Below are positions 623 through 14,926 of a stretch of 64,000 nt of DNA, piece by piece. Made by a program: the position numbers and the translations under genes. Location: assembly GCA_029243545.1 (NCBI GenBank), contig JAQWRV010000022.1, forward strand, positions 62,001 through 126,000. The letters run 5' to 3'. The notes below the pieces were generated by a model. That model ran no database searches. It had not been told where the DNA came from and worked only from the letters and a program-made list of their open reading frames with translations. How positions within the stretch are numbered: position 1 is the first letter of the stretch; the number at the start of each line of letters is the position of its first letter. The DNA comes from Rhodospirillaceae bacterium (GTDB taxonomy: Bacteria > Pseudomonadota > Alphaproteobacteria > Rhodospirillales > Rhodospirillaceae).

Positions 623-2986
<2,364 letters not shown>

Positions 2987-3049
2987 ATAGAACTTCAACC
3001 CTGACGCCGACTGTAATGGCTGGCGCCAGACCACCTTGCGCCCAACCGC

Positions 3050-4171
3050 TTAGGCTTTGAGCGCCGTTGAGATAAACCAGTGGATGCTCTTGTCGAGTTG
3101 CTGGAACTTGCCCTGCCAACAGGTCTCTTCGGGAAAGCCGGCCTTGCGAAGCAATTCGGCAGGTTTATTGTTGGCGTAAACCCGCCAATAGGGTTCGTTG
3201 TTATTAATTTGATCCCAGCCGCGGTGGAATTTCATCCACGGATCGTATTCATCAAAGCGCAAGTTGACGTCCATGTGCATGGCCACTCCGCCGGGCTTAA
3301 GTAGGCGGAAGCTCTCTTGCATCATGCGTTCGGTGGTACCCTGGGGGAACTCATGCATGGAATTGTGTGAGGTGACGAGATCAAAACTACCGTCTTCAAA
3401 GCCGAGGTCTTGGGCGTCGCACTGATGATAATGCACAACCTTGCCCATGGCTTCGGCACGGGCGTGGGCATAACGGAGGATCGCTGCTCCGATATCAACA
3501 CCATGTACGTCCGCATCGGGATAAGCGGTGACGTAAGGCACGGTGGACGAGCCGGCGGAACAGCCGATATCAAGCACGCGGGTTGGCGTGAAATCGGGGT
3601 AGCGGTCCTGAATGAAACGGACACCCACCTCGCCTTTGCTTTCAGCTTGGCCGACGCCACGCCCCATGGTGTACATGTTGCCACCGTATTCATAAAACGC
3701 ACCAGCGAGCACATCGTCGTCACCATAGTCGACGCAGTAACCGCCGGGCTGGAGATGAATATCCACCTTGGCCATCCCGGGCGGCATATTGAAGTTAGGG
3801 TCGAGTTCGAGGCTGCCTTTGCGCTTGGCTGGGTCTGACAGGGTTCTGTATTTGCCGCTGAGAGCATCTCGTTCGCGGTAGAGGGTGTCAGCCACCGCAT
3901 CCCACATCATTTCCTGGCCATTGCGGTGCAGGCCGCTAAACATCTGGTAAGCCGGATCATCCCACATCACCGTGCCTATTTCCTGTGGTGAGTCTGGTTC
4001 GCGGCCGTGTTCCTTGAGGAAGCGGGGCCGGCCGCGTTTTTGGTAAAGCTCTTCGTTGCGGCTGCGCACTTGATCGCGGACAAAATCCTTCAGTGATAGA
4101 GTGTACTGCTGGCGCGCGGCTTCATCGTGATTGGGCGACGCCAGCATCGCATGAGCGGGATTGCGTGGCAT
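3050..4171 (-). CDS. SAM-dependent methyltransferase with N-terminal extension
   Basis: The 373-residue protein has a C-terminal class I SAM-binding domain. Motif I is VLDIGCSAGSS at about 199-209, an acidic VHGVDIG follows at the end of strand 2, and LLKPGG marks the post-motif. About 190 residues precede this domain, including VDIHLQPGGYCVDYG. The same layout occurs in the protein at 30374-31453, so the two are paralogues of one subfamily. It is last in a minus-strand operon, 8 nt after the lipoprotein gene, with a purine-rich GAGG/AGGT region before ATG 4171. An alternative ATG lies at codon 9. The acceptor substrate is unknown; the context (binding protein, ThDP enzyme) suggests an imported small molecule. 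Confidence 0.8.
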   Translation of the reverse strand: MPRNPAHAMLASPNHDEAARQQYTLSLKDFVRDQVRSRNEELYQKRGRPRFLKEHGREPDSPQEIGTVMWDDPAYQMFSGLHRNGQEMMWDAVADTLYRERDALSGKYRTLSDPAKRKGSLELDPNFNMPPGMAKVDIHLQPGGYCVDYGDDDVLAGAFYEYGGNMYTMGRGVGQAESKGEVGVRFIQDRYPDFTPTRVLDIGCSAGSSTVPYVTAYPDADVHGVDIGAAILRYAHARAEAMGKVVHYHQCDAQDLGFEDGSFDLVTSHNSMHEFPQGTTERMMQESFRLLKPGGVAMHMDVNLRFDEYDPWMKFHRGWDQINNNEPYWRVYANNKPAELLRKAGFPEETCWQGKFQQLDKSIHWFISTALKA

Positions 4172-4179
4172 GGATCTAC

Positions 4180-4545
4180 CTATTCCTCTAACCGAACTCT
4201 GGAAATTCTATCACCAAAGAACGTGCCCATATAGAGAAAGCCTTTGTGCGAAAGCGCGACTGACGCGCCGGGTATGAGGCCGTCTTGGTGCTCATAAAGA
4301 ATTTCCTGCGCCAAAGTGTCTGGATCAATGGCGACCACGGCGAAAGGAAAGGCACAGGGTTTACTGCCAATTCCTTGGCAACCATTCGTGCCGAGCAAAG
4401 GTTCTAGGTCTTGGGGCCTTTCAAAACCGCAGATGATGTAACCTTCGTCCGATGAGGTGCAGCCCTCAATGATAGCGGGATCCGTGCAGGCCATTAAGAC
4501 CTGCGACAGGAGAAGCGCAGCGCCAATGGTCAGGAACCTATTCAT
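4180..4545 (-). CDS. Small lipoprotein resembling the end of an SMP-30-type beta-propeller
   Basis: The 121-residue protein has a lipoprotein signal with lipobox LMAC, so Cys20 should be lipidated. The mature part contains ASVALSHKGFLYMGTFFGDRISRV, which resembles the last blade of SMP-30/gluconolactonase or strictosidine-synthase-like propellers. It is far too short for a whole propeller, so it is either a truncated relative or a small accessory protein. Its ATG overlaps the stop of the binding-protein gene (ATGA, 4542-4545), which indicates translational coupling. Four cysteines in the first half of the mature region could form disulfides. I infer an envelope location and have no firm function. 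Confidence 0.6.
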   Translation of the reverse strand: MNRFLTIGAALLLSQVLMACTDPAIIEGCTSSDEGYIICGFERPQDLEPLLGTNGCQGIGSKPCAFPFAVVAIDPDTLAQEILYEHQDGLIPGASVALSHKGFLYMGTFFGDRISRVRLEE

Positions 4546-6056
4546 GGGGCTAACCGTAGCTCTTCAAACACCACTCCGGTGGGGCGCATGGCCATGTTAG
4601 CGATGCGCGACGTATAGGCCGTGGTGTACACCGCATTGGTGATCCAGATGGCCGGGGCAAGATCCTGATAGCGAGCCATGATGTTTTGCAGCAGCACTTC
4701 CCGCTTTGCCCGGTCTAGTTCGCGGCTAGAGGCTTTGATGTCCTCCATCAAATCAGGCTCGCAGAAGAATGCGTTTATGCGCATGCAGGAGAAATACTCG
4801 ATGGGGCGGATCGGGTCTTGAAAGGCGGCGTTGTTCCAGATCAGGTGAAAGGCATCAGCGTCGCCCCAATCCGACAGCGTGTACTTGCGCTGATAGTCGG
4901 AATAGGGAATGGATCGCAAAGTGACATCAACGCCGATGGCGTCAATATCCTGAGCAACTTTTTGATACATGAAGCCGTCGGGTGTGGTGCTATCGGTCAC
5001 CACTTCTATGGTCAGTGGAAAGCCATTGGGATAACCGGCTTCGGCCAGCAGCGCCCGGGCGCGAACGGGATCATAAGCATAGGGTTTGAGCGCAGGGTTA
5101 TAGCCGAAGGTGACAGAGGTGAGGCCCTGGCTCGCCACTTCAGCGTAACCGAACATGATGAGGTCAGCGATGGACTGTTTATCAACCGCATGGTTAAGCG
5201 CCTGGCGCACGCGCTTGTCGTTGAGAGGATGACCGGCCTCGTGTAGCGCATTGGGCAAGGCGATGGACTTCACCTGGGGATTGGCCTGCACGTTGACTTC
5301 AATGCCCGGGATTTTAAGCGTCTCCGCGTCATCCACATGAAGGCCGGTGATCAGATCCAGCTGGCCAGAGATCAAACCTTGAATGCGCGACGTTTTGTCC
5401 GGCACCAAGCGATACTCTACGGCGTCGATTTCAACCGGTGCCCGCCAAGATCTCGGATTGGCTTCCAAGAACGCTACCCTGTTGCCGCTGCCCCAGCCGG
5501 TGAGTTTGTAAGGACCGGTTCCAATGGGCTCCAGAGTATAGGTATCGATACCCATTTCAGCCCAAAGAGTCGGATCAATGATCATCAAGGTTGCCAGCCG
5601 GTTGGGTAGAATGGCATCGGGCTCGATGGTCTCAATTTCCACCGTGAGATCGTCGATGACGCGGCCACCGGCAACACCGCGCAGTTCCGCGGGAATGAGA
5701 AAGCGCGCCATGTCAGGCTGTTTGATCAGGGCAAGAAGGTCGACCACATCCTGCGCCGTGAACGATTTGCCGTTGTGATAGACGACGTTAGGCCGCAGCT
5801 TAAAGACCCAAGTGTTCGGCGAGGTGTTCTCCCAAGACAAAGCCAGGCTTGGCTCAGGACCACCACTCCACCCCAAGCGTGTGAGGTTGTCGTATATAGA
5901 GAGCCACAGCTCCGCCGACGGCTGGCTGGTGCCGGAGAACGGGTTACCCAAGGTCGGCGCAAAGGCAGAGACCGCAACGCGCAGAGTCTCGGCCTGAGCA
6001 ATAGGCGACAAGAAAAGCGAACATCCAATAAGGAGCGTGAAACCTAAGCGCCGCAT
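4542..6056 (-). CDS. Family 5 extracellular solute-binding protein (peptide/nickel type)
   Basis: This is a 504-residue periplasmic binding protein of the DppA/OppA/NikA family. It has a Sec signal peptide ending near AQA|ETLRV, then the family hallmarks WSGGPEPSLALSWE, VYHNGKSFTAQDV and GTGPYKLTGW. Its start overlaps the preceding stop (TAATG at 6056-6058) and its stop overlaps the lipoprotein start (ATGA), so it sits in the middle of a coupled operon. No ABC permease or ATPase gene is next to it or anywhere in the window. It is related to the protein at 21944-23464; both carry a closely spaced cysteine pair near the C-terminal third (SCMRINAFFC here). The ligand is unknown. Confidence 0.85.
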   Translation of the reverse strand: MRRLGFTLLIGCSLFLSPIAQAETLRVAVSAFAPTLGNPFSGTSQPSAELWLSIYDNLTRLGWSGGPEPSLALSWENTSPNTWVFKLRPNVVYHNGKSFTAQDVVDLLALIKQPDMARFLIPAELRGVAGGRVIDDLTVEIETIEPDAILPNRLATLMIIDPTLWAEMGIDTYTLEPIGTGPYKLTGWGSGNRVAFLEANPRSWRAPVEIDAVEYRLVPDKTSRIQGLISGQLDLITGLHVDDAETLKIPGIEVNVQANPQVKSIALPNALHEAGHPLNDKRVRQALNHAVDKQSIADLIMFGYAEVASQGLTSVTFGYNPALKPYAYDPVRARALLAEAGYPNGFPLTIEVVTDSTTPDGFMYQKVAQDIDAIGVDVTLRSIPYSDYQRKYTLSDWGDADAFHLIWNNAAFQDPIRPIEYFSCMRINAFFCEPDLMEDIKASSRELDRAKREVLLQNIMARYQDLAPAIWITNAVYTTAYTSRIANMAMRPTGVVFEELRLAP

Positions 6057-8782: not shown

Positions 8783-8845
8783 GCGTGATTGATTGATTGA
8801 TTTCTTTAGGGTTAGTTGTTCAAAATCAAAAAACATCGCATGCAT

Positions 8846-9379
8846 CTACATGTGCCATTCGAGTTTACCGCCCACCCAAATGACAGCCTCAAATTGGTCT
8901 AATATATACTTGTAGTCGATATCTGAGGCACCATAATTCCCCCTGTTATTACACTCTGCCGCAAGCTTTGGCCCTCCATACTCTAGTCGAAGCTCGACAT
9001 ACCAATCATCTGACTCACTTTCTAAATAACTCACCCGCAGCGCCGTTCCACCTAGATGAGGATAGGTAATTGCTTCTATCGCTTCTTTGGGAAAAACGAT
9101 TCTAAGTGCGTCATCGTCAATAATTACAGAAATGTTCTTTGTACTTTGGTAAGAGTGCGTTTCTTCGTCAAACACTCCACCGGAATCAATTTCAACCTTT
9201 AGAATATCAAATGGACCAGGAGCCGCTGCGGTAAAACTGATGTCATGCCCCGTATACGAGAGAGATTCTCAAATGTGAACCGTAATCTCGTCGCTAAGAT
9301 CGGGAACACCATTTGCGTTGGCATTGCTGAGCTCCAGCAAAGAGGCCAATATTGATATGAATAGGATTGTCGTAGTCAC
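8846..9379 (-). pseudogene. Secreted protein of unknown family interrupted by an in-frame TGA
   Basis: One continuous frame runs from GTG 9379 to the stop at 8846 except for a single TGA at 9271-9269. Before it, the frame encodes a signal peptide (TTTILFISILASLLELSNANA) and a short mature stretch. After it come ESLSYTGHDISFTAAAPGPF and about 130 more residues rich in beta-strand patterns. The GTG overlaps the stop of the CHASE-like gene (GTGA, 9376-9379) and AGGAGA precedes it, so coupled translation is expected. I recognise no family. The TGA is best explained as a nonsense mutation or sequencing error. If it is real, a downstream GTG at 9175 could start only a leaderless 109-residue fragment. 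(GATT)n-like repeats lie just beyond its 3' end, at 8786-8802. Confidence 0.65.
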
Positions 9380-10305
9380 AATGGTTGACGTCTCCTGCCC
9401 CATAACAGAAGCACAATCACCAGCGTGCCGAAGATGCCCGTGTACAAAGCGTAGTCATCCGTACGTGTGCCAGCCCCGCCGTAATAGTCGGGCGTTACAT
9501 CCCACATCATGGTGAACTGGGCGCTGTCGATCTCGGCGGCGATTTCAATTGTTTTGACCGCATCTGCAGCAGGCGCGTCCGCACCTACAATAAATTTCGG
9601 TTCCGTCATACCATTTCCATCTGGGAAAGACGCTTGCAAGCGCAACTGCATGCCAGCAGGAATCCATTCATCGGCCATGCGCGCGACCAAGTTCTGATAA
9701 TCGATCAGGCTGACGACCACACCGAACTGGCGGGTGTTGCGAATGGTGACGGCGTAATAGGAATATTGCTCTCCCGTATCGCGCTGAAACACCGGGCCGA
9801 TGATCAAGGTATTTTGATTAGCCAGAGCTGTATCGATGGTGGCGGCCATGGGGCCGAACCGCGAAACATCTGAGCCGGGACGCAACACGCCGCTTTCGTC
9901 TGTGGAATAGGCCACCATCCAACAGCCATCATCTTCACCGCAGCTGGACGGTTGTGATTTAGTGACGAACCCCATGGAGCCCGGAAAAGCACCTTTGCGA
10001 TGTCCTTTTAAATAGGTGATGGTGTTTTCGAATTCGTCGGCGGCGACGCGGCCAGAGCCATTAAATAAAGTGGCTAAACTCTGCAACGGGCCGTTGGAGT
10101 GATCCAGTAACAACATTAAGGTGCGGCCCAGGCGTTCGGCATCCGCTTCCGCTTGGGCTGACCAGGAGAGCACTGCATTTTGTTCCAAGGGACGGCTAAA
10201 GAAGAATGACCCGGCCAGCCCCAATATGAGAATGACGATGATGTGCGCTTTGCCGCGGCTGGCTTTTGGCATGCGTGACTTAACGTTGCTTTCATCATTG
10301 GACAT
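9376..10305 (-). CDS. Membrane protein with a CHASE-like periplasmic domain and no output domain
   Basis: The 309-residue protein starts at ATG 10305. A first membrane helix spans about 20-37 and a second about 283-303, followed only by GRRRQPL. The region between them resembles a CHASE sensor: a helical LLDHSNGPLQSLATLFNGSG, FENTITYLKGH and GSMGFVTK, then IGPVFQRD. CHASE domains normally sense small ligands for histidine kinases, cyclases or GGDEF proteins. Here no cytoplasmic signalling domain remains and none is encoded next door. A frame extending upstream to 10827 is antisense to the WD40 gene and is not used. It is coupled to the secreted protein downstream. The CHASE assignment rests on pattern, not on a search. 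Confidence 0.65.
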   Translation of the reverse strand: MSNDESNVKSRMPKASRGKAHIIVILILGLAGSFFFSRPLEQNAVLSWSAQAEADAERLGRTLMLLLDHSNGPLQSLATLFNGSGRVAADEFENTITYLKGHRKGAFPGSMGFVTKSQPSSCGEDDGCWMVAYSTDESGVLRPGSDVSRFGPMAATIDTALANQNTLIIGPVFQRDTGEQYSYYAVTIRNTRQFGVVVSLIDYQNLVARMADEWIPAGMQLRLQASFPDGNGMTEPKFIVGADAPAADAVKTIEIAAEIDSAQFTMMWDVTPDYYGGAGTRTDDYALYTGIFGTLVIVLLLWGRRRQPL

Positions 10306-10474
10306 AAACTCAGACCCCTTAAAATCCCCGTGCTGCACTGTCAGTTTAGCTGCGCCCTGGGCATTGTCTACTTTCGCGCGTGCGAAGAGATTAGCATGAC
10401 GACGCGCCGCTTTATGCGTAGAGTTCTGTGAGCGGTCGCATTGAACACCCAGTTGGGTTGGAGGATTTGAAACT

Positions 10475-12346
10475 ATGGCGATGGGTTTGCGTAATTCACT
10501 ATTAAGTATACTAACCCTTGGGGTTGTTGCATCACACAGCGGTATTCTTTCAGCGCAAACATTTCTTGGCGAAACCAATATCCATATTCCCGCACAAGGC
10601 GGGCCACTGACTCCGGTAAAATTGACCTTCGATCCGACCGACCCGAATCGCTTCGCAGTCGTCGACGTATCCGACGGCAGCGTGGGTGTCTGGACCTTCG
10701 ACGAAGTGTTCATCAAAGAATTGGATATTGATGCCCGCGCTGTTGCGGTGGCAATCTCGCCCGATGCTTCGGTCATCGCGACCTCAACCATACGCGGACG
10801 GATTTTTATTTGGGATCGTGACGGCACCCAAGTGGGCGAACCCTTCCTAGGTCATGAAGGCTCCATACAGGAGTTGGATTTCTCACCGGACGGACAATAC
10901 CTGGCCTCGGCGGGTTATGACGGCACCGTGCGCATTTGGAATATGGATGGCACCATGAAGGAGGAACCGTTCCTGGGTCATACGGAATGGGTGCGGTCGG
11001 TCGCCTATTCTCCCGACGGCACCAAGGTCGCTTCGTCCAGCATCGATGGCACCGTCCGGCTTTGGGACACCAACGGCAAACTGCTGGCCGGGCCTTTGTT
11101 GGGCCATGAGCGCTGGGTCGAGGCAGTGAGATTTTCACCCGACGGGCGTTTTCTGGCGTCGGCCGGTGACGACGGCATGGTGCGGGTGTGGAACCTGGAC
11201 GGAACACCTCTTATGGACCCCCTCTCCGGCCATCGCGCCTGGGTGGTTGATTTCTCACCCAAGGGCACTGTGCTGGCGTCAGCCGGCGATGATGGGTCTG
11301 TCTTGCTGCGTAATTTTGATGGCGCGTTACGCCGCCCTGCCCTGCGTGGTCATGCAGGTTCCGTGCAAGCGCTGGCGTTTTCTCCGGACGGCGAGTTCTT
11401 CGCCACCGGTGGATATTACGATGGCACGGTGCGCCTTTGGAACATTGACGGCATACCGCGCGGCGAACCATTGCGCGCCCATGCCCCGTGGTTTCGCAGC
11501 CTCGCCTTCTCGCCAGCGAGCGATCTCGTCGTGATAGCCGGCGATGATGGCAGCTTCCGCCTTTGGATGAGCGACGGCATTCAAATTGGCAAACCGTTTC
11601 TTGGGCATGGCTCCTGGGTTGAGGCGGCAACGTTTTCACCGGACGGCGAACGCATTGCCACGGCGAGCTATGACGGTACGGTCCGTGTGTGGACCATTGA
11701 CGGTGCCCTTCAACAGGTTCTCGAAGGTGACGGATCGCGTATGACGTCGGTAGCCTTCTCGGCGGACGGCATGATTGTCGCCGGCGGCAACGAACAGGGC
11801 ATAGTGAAACAATGGCGCTTAGATGGCGGCCAACCCATTGACCCCATCAAGGCCAATTCAGGCGCGGTCGGCGCCATTGCGTTCTCTCCGTCAGGGCGTT
11901 CGTTTGTCACCGGCGGTGAAGATGGCGCCATGAAGATTTGGTCAGCCGACGGGTTTATGCGCAACGCTATGTCGAGGGCCCATGACGCCCAAATTCGCGC
12001 GATTGCGTTTTCGTCGGATGGATCAGCGCTCGCCACCGCAGGAGAAGACGGCGTTGTGCGCTTTTGGGGCACCGACGGCACGCCCCGAGGTCAACGCATG
12101 AAAGGGCATCAGGCCTGGGTGCGTTCACTGGCGTTTTCACCGGACGGTACTCTCCTGGCCTCTGCCGGAGATGATGGCGCGGTCAGGCTATGGTCAGCGG
12201 ACGGCACCCCGGTGTTTGACCCCATGCGAGGCCATGATGGATCCGCCAGCAGCGTGTCGTTCTCGCCGGACGGCGCCACCGTCACCACAGGTGGATATTT
12301 CGATGGAAAGGTTCGCCGCTGGCAAATTGCGGAGCGTGTGGAGTAG
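10475..12346 (+). CDS. Exported WD40-repeat protein with about 14 blades
   Basis: The 623-residue protein has a Sec-type signal peptide (SLLSILTLGVVASH, cleavage near LSA|QT). It then holds about 14 WD40 repeats of roughly 42 residues with the pattern FSPDGxxxASAGDDGxVRxW. Two seven-bladed propellers would account for them. GGAGG lies 10 nt before ATG 10475. There is no kinase, caspase or NACHT part, unlike many bacterial WD40 proteins. The inferred role is a periplasmic or surface binding scaffold. It is divergent from the CHASE-like gene across a 169-bp gap, so the two may be co-regulated. Repeats are similar but not identical, suggesting old internal duplication. Confidence 0.85.
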   Translation: MAMGLRNSLLSILTLGVVASHSGILSAQTFLGETNIHIPAQGGPLTPVKLTFDPTDPNRFAVVDVSDGSVGVWTFDEVFIKELDIDARAVAVAISPDASVIATSTIRGRIFIWDRDGTQVGEPFLGHEGSIQELDFSPDGQYLASAGYDGTVRIWNMDGTMKEEPFLGHTEWVRSVAYSPDGTKVASSSIDGTVRLWDTNGKLLAGPLLGHERWVEAVRFSPDGRFLASAGDDGMVRVWNLDGTPLMDPLSGHRAWVVDFSPKGTVLASAGDDGSVLLRNFDGALRRPALRGHAGSVQALAFSPDGEFFATGGYYDGTVRLWNIDGIPRGEPLRAHAPWFRSLAFSPASDLVVIAGDDGSFRLWMSDGIQIGKPFLGHGSWVEAATFSPDGERIATASYDGTVRVWTIDGALQQVLEGDGSRMTSVAFSADGMIVAGGNEQGIVKQWRLDGGQPIDPIKANSGAVGAIAFSPSGRSFVTGGEDGAMKIWSADGFMRNAMSRAHDAQIRAIAFSSDGSALATAGEDGVVRFWGTDGTPRGQRMKGHQAWVRSLAFSPDGTLLASAGDDGAVRLWSADGTPVFDPMRGHDGSASSVSFSPDGATVTTGGYFDGKVRRWQIAERVE

Positions 12347-12549
12347 AGGCCTGATGCCAATCTATCGGCCAATCCAATGGAATTCAGGGCATGCATGGCA
12401 TTTGGGGCTAGTGTCAGACCTGCGCCAACTTCACCCAGTTCTGTGACGCGCTCATAGACGCTCGGCTTGAATCCTAATCGCTGTAACGCGCTGGCCGCAA
12501 CGAGACCGGATATGCCTGCCCCGATTATCGCGATCCGCATGTCTTTCAT
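12347..12549 (-). pseudogene. N-terminal stub of an FAD-dependent monooxygenase
   Basis: From ATG 12549 the frame encodes MRIAIIGAGISGLVAASAL, an FAD-binding GxGxxG fold. VYERVTELGEVGAGLTLAPN and ALNSIGLADRL follow, typical of salicylate-hydroxylase/PHBH-type monooxygenases. Resemblance ends at about residue 68, exactly where the convergent WD40 gene stops; the open frame beyond is only antisense to WD40 repeats. About 300 residues, including the DG and GD motifs, are missing. I infer a deletion that joined this stub to the 3' end of the WD40 gene. The stretch 12550-12682 up to the next gene shows nothing I can name. Confidence 0.7.
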
Positions 12550-13609: not shown

Positions 13610-14926
13610 CTAAGACTTATTCGCCGGTACGTCCAAGGTGGAGCGGTCAATACGCTCTCCACCCTTGTAGACGGAGTCGATCATGGTGGTGTTGTGAATA
13701 TCGGCCACGGGATCAGCCGTCAGCAGCACCATGTCGGCCAATTTGCCGGGCTCGATGGACCCCAGATCCTCTTCGACACCGATATACGCCGCCGCATTGA
13801 GGGTGCCCATGCGGATGGCGGCCAGTGTCGGAATGCCCGACTCAACCAAAATTTCCATTTCCTGGTGGGACATAGGACCCATGGACCGGTCGGTCCCCAT
13901 GGCGATGGTCGCGCCGGATTCATGGAGGAACAGAATATTTTTCATGATGGCGGGACGCAGTGAACTGAGCCAGCCGGTGTAAAGAGAGCCATTGAACCGG
14001 TCGCTCTCTTTAATTTCATCACGAACATCTTTGGGAATAACTGCGACAAACAGCGGCTCATCCAGGAACGTGGTATCGGCTTCGATGCGCGTCATGGTGG
14101 ATGAAAAGATAACGCCCTTGTCAATCGCCTCTTGGGCAAAGCCTTCGTTCGCGGCATCCAAATATATCGTATGTGCGAACGCATCCGCACCTGCTTCTAA
14201 TGATTCGCGAGCCAGTTCCACCTCAGACACGTGGACTGTGGTGCGGATGCCGTTCTCGTGGGCATAAGCAACCAACTTGTTCATGAGGTCCGGTGCAATA
14301 AGCGGCATGTTACGGCCAGTCGGGCCCATGCCGCGCCGCTCGCGGGTAAATTTCAAAAGGTCCGGCTTCATGGCGAAGATGGCGTCGAGCTTTTTGATGC
14401 CGTCTTCATAGTCGTAAACGACGGTTCCACCTGCACAGCAGCCGTGACCTTCCGGCGGCGCTATAAGGCTCACCGTGGTGTAGATGCGCGGGCTGCGGAT
14501 ACGGCCAGACCGTTCATCGGCGCGCATGAGTGTGATGTATGGCGCATTGTTGCCAGAATCATAAACCGTGGTCACACCGGAATAGAGAAAGCCTTCCATG
14601 ACCGGAATACCTACTTCTGGCCGGATGACCAGCGTCCGGTTGCCGGGGCCAGTGCGGCCGCCTGGAACATGAATATGGCTGTCGATGATACCGGGGATGA
14701 GAAATTTTCCGGTACCGTCGACGCGCTCGGTACCGCTCGGAACCGAAATGGGCCCCTTGGACACAGCGGCGAAACGGTCGCCTTCTATCAAGATGGATGC
14801 ACCTTTAACCGGCGGCGCCCCCGTGCCATCGATCAAAGTGACGTTTTCGATCAGGAGGGACTGGGCTTGTACTTGGCCAAATAGAAACAAGCCTACGACT
14901 GAAAATTTTAGTGCGTGGCGAATCAT
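13610..14926 (-). CDS. Exported amidohydrolase (imidazolonepropionase/prolidase-like)
   Basis: The 438-residue protein has a signal peptide ending near VQA|QS, then the amidohydrolase frame VTLIDGTGAPPVKGASILIEG. Metal-site residues are visible: H84 and H86 in DSHIHV, a candidate carboxylated lysine in LLKFTRE, histidines in TVHVSE and FAHTIY, and an aspartate in GTDRS. The C-terminal GSIEPGKLADMVLL is typical of this family. Members hydrolyse amides, cyclic imides or dipeptides in the periplasm or cytosol. A CC pair in HGCCAGG is unusual. It leads a two-gene operon with the H139 hydrolase. The 155-bp gap upstream holds only a short direct repeat. Confidence 0.85.
   Translation of the reverse strand: MIRHALKFSVVGLFLFGQVQAQSLLIENVTLIDGTGAPPVKGASILIEGDRFAAVSKGPISVPSGTERVDGTGKFLIPGIIDSHIHVPGGRTGPGNRTLVIRPEVGIPVMEGFLYSGVTTVYDSGNNAPYITLMRADERSGRIRSPRIYTTVSLIAPPEGHGCCAGGTVVYDYEDGIKKLDAIFAMKPDLLKFTRERRGMGPTGRNMPLIAPDLMNKLVAYAHENGIRTTVHVSEVELARESLEAGADAFAHTIYLDAANEGFAQEAIDKGVIFSSTMTRIEADTTFLDEPLFVAVIPKDVRDEIKESDRFNGSLYTGWLSSLRPAIMKNILFLHESGATIAMGTDRSMGPMSHQEMEILVESGIPTLAAIRMGTLNAAAYIGVEEDLGSIEPGKLADMVLLTADPVADIHNTTMIDSVYKGGERIDRSTLDVPANKS

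Follow-up and report, generated by a model that had tools for sequence, protein, structure and literature searches.

A putative CHASE/Cache-type sensory module without an output domain, encoded beside an exported WD40 propeller in a small group of uncultured bacteria

Within a 64,000-nucleotide stretch from a Rhodospirillaceae bacterium (assembly GCA_029243545.1, contig JAQWRV010000022.1, positions 62,001 to 126,000; hereafter the window), we analyzed a minus-strand gene at positions 9376–10305, which encodes a membrane-bound sensor protein devoid of any output part, together with the divergent gene for an exported WD40 propeller. We consider it reasonably probable that this protein represents a receptor's sensory module, of CHASE/Cache type, which lacks an output and has been kept as a membrane-anchored periplasmic binding or docking protein working with the propeller. 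A more specific version of this explanation is put forward tentatively—namely, that the module has ceased to signal across the membrane and joins the 14-blade propeller in a periplasmic complex of two proteins, to which it contributes membrane anchoring and ligand binding, with the propeller in the slot of a TorT-like protein and the kinase discarded. Such a complex would be a novel type of envelope unit.

The open reading frame (ORF) of the sensor runs uninterrupted from an ATG at 10305 to a TGA at 9376–9378, is preceded by a stretch resembling a ribosome-binding site (AAGGGG) and encodes 309 amino acids (aa). A hydropathy scan revealed two peaks, at residues 18–41 and 284–304, with a basic N-terminus before the first and a basic C-terminus of six residues (RRRQPL) after the best-scoring 19-residue segment within the second. 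The domain of ca. 240 residues between the helices, with short ends outside them, would face the periplasm, as judged from the distribution of charges. No cytoplasmic output domain is present in the same chain, which stops six residues past helix 2—exactly as an earlier, sequence-only reading of this DNA had described it. Moreover, a family-profile search of the source genome returned this sensor gene only, without a kinase-bearing paralogue. The protein and its parts map to the window as follows.

9376–10305, minus strand: output-less membrane protein of putative CHASE/Cache type, 309 aa (from the ORF, orthologues, hydropathy and selection).
10183–10254, minus strand: membrane helix 1, residues 18–41 (hydropathy scan).
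9697–10095, minus strand: membrane-distal half, residues 71–203, with 52 of the 55 residues that are invariant in the free-standing orthologues, including Cys122/Cys128 and the NTRQFGV stretch.
9490–9696, minus strand: membrane-proximal half, residues 204–272, with 2 of its 69 residues invariant in the free-standing orthologues.
9394–9456, minus strand: membrane helix 2, residues 284–304, with the end of the protein a few residues on (hydropathy scan).

Homologues of the sensor were detected in 12 of 98 related genomes (the source genome included), nine of them short and three long. The nine free-standing forms are distributed over four genera (g1, g2, g17 and g23) of one family, with a length of about 305–309 aa in seven of the other genomes, depending on the start codon, and of 260 aa in one. 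The short tail after helix 2 recurs in seven orthologues; the eighth, from the small, 1.7-Mb genome G022 (L020, 7973–8755), has neither a second helix nor a remnant of one in any frame. In a tree of 36 rows, the nine free forms make up one side of a branch that separates them from 27 fused forms (support 100/100), and the ratio of nonsynonymous to synonymous substitution rates (dN/dS) is 0.03–0.07 in the 7 of 21 pairs with unsaturated dS. The genes downstream of the free sensor differ between genera. These comparisons show that the short form is held under strong selection in a small group of uncultured bacteria. Since it is common to four genera and under selection, the sensor is not a truncated copy, and the nine orthologues together with the dN/dS values rule out truncation or decay. 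The sequence-only reading had named as a refutation homologues with an output domain, which would expose this copy as truncated: such relatives do exist (27 long ones, mostly kinases), but the conclusion drawn from them does not hold.

Outside the free-form genera, near-full-length relatives sit in long frames, as seen across 317 genomes of the order and a class sample of 385. Matches to a 12-row profile were found in 34 of the 317 genomes of the order, 17 of the 385 in the class sample and 12 of the 398 in a phylum sample, many of the genomes compared being fragmented assemblies. Of the three long homologues among the 98 related genomes, one is a hybrid histidine kinase, another a MASE1-PAS-SpoIIE phosphatase, and the third a histidine kinase whose match to CHASE stays below threshold. 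The outputs found upon scanning 27 long relatives—several of which are pieces cut at locus ends—comprise HisKA (21), HATPase_c (19), SpoIIE (3) and GGDEF (1). For the tree, 27 fused rows were retained, all of them having a locus and a nearly complete domain; matches that were partial or had no locus were set aside, and 24 of the 27 rows went into profile A7. All searched frames run from stop to stop, and the window gene, whose frame is open upstream, measures 491 on that scale; in a rough comparison, the shortest such frame among the 150 PF03924 matches listed for the phylum sample was 421, and the next below 491 was 470. An open frame of 348 residues (G133:C64) was considered as a further free form and rejected: it is followed in L127 by an overlapping ORF of ca. 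500 residues with a hydrophobic start, and we infer a frameshifted fused gene. In L052, the sensor domain is followed by a PAS stretch and 116 residues, and by nothing else. A separate ORF on the minus strand of L126 (1571–2956) combines a MASE1 piece, a CHASE/dCache-like domain and PAS, after which it ends; it is possibly another output-poor member.

The term CHASE-like, applied to the protein in the sequence-only reading, needs qualifying because the Pfam CHASE model PF03924 is missing from both the sensor and the source genome, and the link runs instead through the fused relatives, the flanks of CHASE domains and the fold. PF03924 found no match anywhere in the source genome; in the sensor, at E ≤ 10 (expect value), neither PF03924 nor the SMP_2 model matched, and the single Pfam line obtained was S_layer_C at 0.15; NCBIfam likewise returned noise, and a PDB sequence search with the sensor gave chance matches only. 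Profile comparison (hhalign) of the nine free orthologues with 20 narrow CHASE rows produced no real match. The free and fused groups, in turn, aligned over their full length, both helices included, with an E value of 7e-47, and the fused relatives aligned to the narrow CHASE set at 0.0096. PF03924 itself is matched by 8 of the 27 fused relatives at E ≤ 0.01 (best 6.7e-6) and dCache_1 by 1 of 27. Furthermore, in 8 of 12 other loci of the phylum sample, the family profile abuts the PF03924 core (before it, after it or both) in the right order, through weak matches. Common descent with CHASE-bearing proteins was thus found by way of the fused relatives and the flanks of PF03924 cores.

The predicted structure of the sensor is a weak model, with a mean predicted local distance difference test score (pLDDT) of 55. 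Comparison of this low-confidence model with known structures placed the CHASE sensor of AHK4 first (Z 12.5, 217 residues, 3.8 Å), with CqsR and dCache sensors at Z 11.9 and below, within about 1 of AHK4; Foldseek ranked CqsR and dCache above AHK4. The fold comparison proposed in the earlier reading therefore fits, at low confidence, CHASE and dCache sensors alike. In its modelled layout—a helix, two PAS-like halves and a second helix—the sensor would resemble CHASE receptors (PF03924; e.g., Arabidopsis AHK4, 3t4k), from which it differs by the lack of a profile match of its own, by the lack of a cytoplasmic output and by a cysteine pair of its own. Xanthomonas PcrK (6k62) is, presumably, a solved CHASE domain as well. 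From sequence and model taken together, we call the sensor a divergent module of probable CHASE/Cache type; it stands alone, is conserved as such and has output-bearing relatives, as expected of an output-less Cache module.

The distribution of conserved residues separates free from fused forms. Of 55 residues invariant in the nine free forms, 52 fall within the 133 residues of the distal half, 2 within the 69 of the proximal half and none within the helix-2 stretch. Identity in the distal half exceeds that in the proximal half by at least 0.24 in every one of the 21 free-form pairs that span two genera, as against a difference that does not exceed 0.16 among 351 pairs of fused forms (the pairs in both sets being non-independent); pairs inside genus g2 show a smaller difference, with a median of 0.16 and a range of 0.03–0.26. 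Four residues shared without exception by the 27 fused relatives—W48, W268, G277 and G290—are changed or absent in two, three, two and one of the nine free forms, respectively. Conversely, Cys122 and Cys128 occur in 9/9 free and 0/27 fused forms, and an NTRQF stretch is common to all nine free forms. R86, R149, F150, R192, Q193 and F194 are likewise invariant in the free forms and are found in no more than 2 of the 27 fused relatives. Our reading of this pattern is that the transmembrane relay may have been lost or relaxed in the free forms: the concentration of invariance in the distal half, the identity gap, the changed fused-invariant residues and the lack of helix 2 in G022 all argue against a working relay. 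The sequence-only reading had left two options, signaling through a partner or acting by ligand binding; the pattern favors binding or docking over partner signaling.

The second constituent of the proposed pair is the propeller, which shares its upstream region with the sensor gene. The features concerned are listed below.

10475–12346, plus strand: divergent exported WD40 propeller, 623 aa and ca. 14 blades, with a full orthologue in the same 9 of 98 genomes.
10306–10474, no strand assigned: intergenic region of 169 bp shared by the two divergent genes, with one promoter-like site on the minus strand and no terminator.
13610–14926, minus strand: exported amidohydrolase, near the pair in all nine genomes and found also in genomes without it.

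The propeller carries an export signal and about 14 WD40 blades, and its model has a mean pLDDT of 83. Searching with it at E ≤ 1e-30 identified 14 of the 98 genomes, nine of which gave E values of 1e-158 or better; these nine are exactly the free-sensor genomes, and the two genes are adjacent and divergent in every one of them. The suggested link between sensor and divergent exported propeller is thereby borne out as a conserved arrangement, in which an exported partner is encoded beside a membrane sensor. A promoter scan of the 169-bp gap returned a single weak site. In G001, a genome of the sister genus to which six of the nine also belong, sensor and propeller are both missing, and the solute-binding protein (SBP), the thiamine pyrophosphate (TPP) enzyme, the hydrolase and the amidohydrolase are kept, with the stop codons of the hydrolase and amidohydrolase genes overlapping where the pair is missing. 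Since both genes are absent between retained flanks, sensor and propeller were most likely lost as a unit. A side feature of the propeller locus is an N-terminal piece of a FAD (flavin adenine dinucleotide)-binding monooxygenase (12109–12549, minus strand), which extends into the antisense of the propeller gene and is remnant-like.

Exported proteins that feed the sensor of a kinase are known from TorT/TorS and LuxP/LuxQ. The present pair resembles these systems in that a membrane sensor domain is encoded beside an exported partner, and differs from them in having no kinase output and, as partner, a WD40 propeller instead of a protein of the sugar-binding type. Inspection of 1.5-kb flanks by eye and by pattern revealed a gene for a TorT-like periplasmic protein directly upstream of, and on the same strand as, at least 8 of the 27 fused relatives (L051, L053, L054, L069, L070, L063, L022 and L021)—a lower bound, given the way the neighbors were sought. 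NCBIfam NF008185 scored above its cut-off in seven of the eight, the eighth being cut by a contig end. Of the eight fused rows closest to the free branch, seven are TorT-associated, and TorT was found in none of the nine free-form genomes. The occurrence of TorT-like genes beside fused relatives implies that the domain family works beside periplasmic partners. As separate observations, the TorT-like genes precede CHASE-like kinases and a MASE1-PAS-SpoIIE phosphatase, a partner-beside-sensor arrangement unlike classical TorS, and L022 encodes upstream of its TorT-like gene a 1223-aa protein (2114–5785) with several solute-binding-type repeats, recognized by eye, followed by a PAS-like stretch.

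On this basis, we propose that the module was most likely severed from a kinase and kept as a free-standing inner-membrane protein. Its distal half would bind a small ligand, the propeller or both, holding the propeller at the inner membrane, and the proximal half and helices would now serve mainly as an anchor without relaying a signal. In the simplest account, a partner-reading module would have lost its kinase and either kept or exchanged its periplasmic partner. The neighboring exported amidohydrolase, hydrolase and solute-binding protein hint that the ligand might derive from a compound handled by the cluster.

Several observations weigh against this interpretation. Helix 2 is kept in eight of nine orthologues, which would leave room for a relay via a membrane partner, and the divergence of the proximal half may reflect co-evolution with a partner specific to the lineage instead of relaxation; in addition, two genomes that weigh in the relay test are incompletely assembled (G022, 81%; G033, 66%). 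Support for placing the free branch with the TorT-associated rows is weak (88/60; without L052 in the group, the p value of the approximately unbiased test, p-AU, is 0.28), and because of this weakness and of the unrooted tree, the order of events, in which the kinase would precede the free form, is deduced from the broader occurrence of the fused forms. Adjacency and joint absence are linkage, not contact, and the shared intergenic region and joint loss can also reflect co-regulation. Finally, G016 (g17) and G036 (g23, 58% complete) have neither sensor nor propeller, so the pair is dispensable within these genera.

It is less likely, though worth serious consideration, that the protein still works as a transmembrane receptor: it would detect a ligand or the propeller on the outer side, and its helices would pass the signal on to a kinase or cyclase encoded by another gene, in the manner of a split receptor. 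The retention of helix 2 and the mostly kinase outputs of the fused relatives would agree with this, as would a survey of the Cache clan, the relevant parts of which describe modules other than SMP_2 as inputs of signal proteins (PMC4822843). However, fused-invariant residues are altered, helix 2 is missing from one orthologue, divergence of the proximal half is fast, and the ORFs listed for the nine loci, where neighbors are partly annotated, showed no kinase or cyclase beside the pair. An accessory role in a degradation or uptake cluster—a membrane-held binder that hands over a compound of the amide or ester type to the amidohydrolase, the hydrolase or the family-5 solute-binding protein, with the propeller as a scaffold—appears improbable. 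The amidohydrolase does lie no more than one gene from the propeller in 9/9 free-form genomes, and the SBP-TPP-hydrolase synteny is found in g1 and g2; yet G001 keeps the cluster without the pair, whereas g17 and g23, in which the rest of the cluster differs, keep the pair without hydrolase, TPP enzyme or SBP nearby. A decaying remnant or assembly artefact of a kinase gene is hardly credible: despite the broken ORF directly downstream and the existence of output-bearing relatives, the same length and end in eight genomes, the low dN/dS and the downstream genes that vary by genus speak against it, and the conserved orthologues have already refuted it.

The preferred explanation, an output-free module kept for binding or docking, has a counterpart in SMP_2. 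According to the sections of the Cache survey that treat it, SMP_2 is the only Cache family without an output architecture, a module cut off from its protein, and its closest relative is DUF2222, the sensor of BarA/GacS kinases (PMC4822843). The sensor likewise is a putative Cache-clan module without output; unlike SMP_2, it has no DUF2222 or SMP_2 Pfam match, is of putative CHASE/dCache type and is paired with a propeller. By analogy, it would be a further case of an SMP_2-like cut-off module, in another lineage and with a partner. For CHASE, the counts given in the same survey (1214 sequences, 607 of them with kinases, 549 with cyclic di-GMP enzymes and 17 with other listed outputs) leave few sequences that could be free (PMC4822843). 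As described in the part of the IsmP-ImcA study considered here, IsmP of Pseudomonas aeruginosa carries a CHASE4 sensor that acts through a separately encoded membrane partner; it differs from the present sensor in keeping cytoplasmic domains (PAS among them) and in controlling a cyclase inside the cell (PMC10904736). Among the titles listed in the open-access library searched, none described a pair of output-less CHASE sensor and WD40 propeller. An output is almost invariably joined to the sensory modules of this clan, and a second lineage that keeps the module alone makes it possible to ask what the domain does by itself. Moreover, the positions kept in all fused and lost in free forms may mark the relay to the membrane and are open to residue-by-residue comparison, and module and propeller form a pair whose complex lends itself to a test by a single experiment.

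One further feature lies downstream of the sensor gene.

8783–9375, no strand assigned: segment poor in guanine and cytosine (GC; 43%) between the sensor and hydrolase genes, outside the system and comprising most of the broken ORF 8846–9379 on the minus strand.

The sequence-only reading had made this ORF a coupled secreted protein and, hence, the third member of an envelope sensing system, a proposal that is not supported. Its GTG start overlaps the sensor stop by four bases, and its codon 37 is an in-frame TGA (9269–9271), reached after 36 codons. The 593-bp segment has a GC content of 43% versus 53%, and none of 635 sampled stretches of the same size was as low. The downstream piece of the broken ORF was found in 1 of 59 genomes of the family, the source genome itself; the sister genus instead shows an overlap between the stops of the sensor and hydrolase genes. 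We take the segment to be an insertion carrying a broken gene, in which the in-frame TGA may alternatively be an assembly error.
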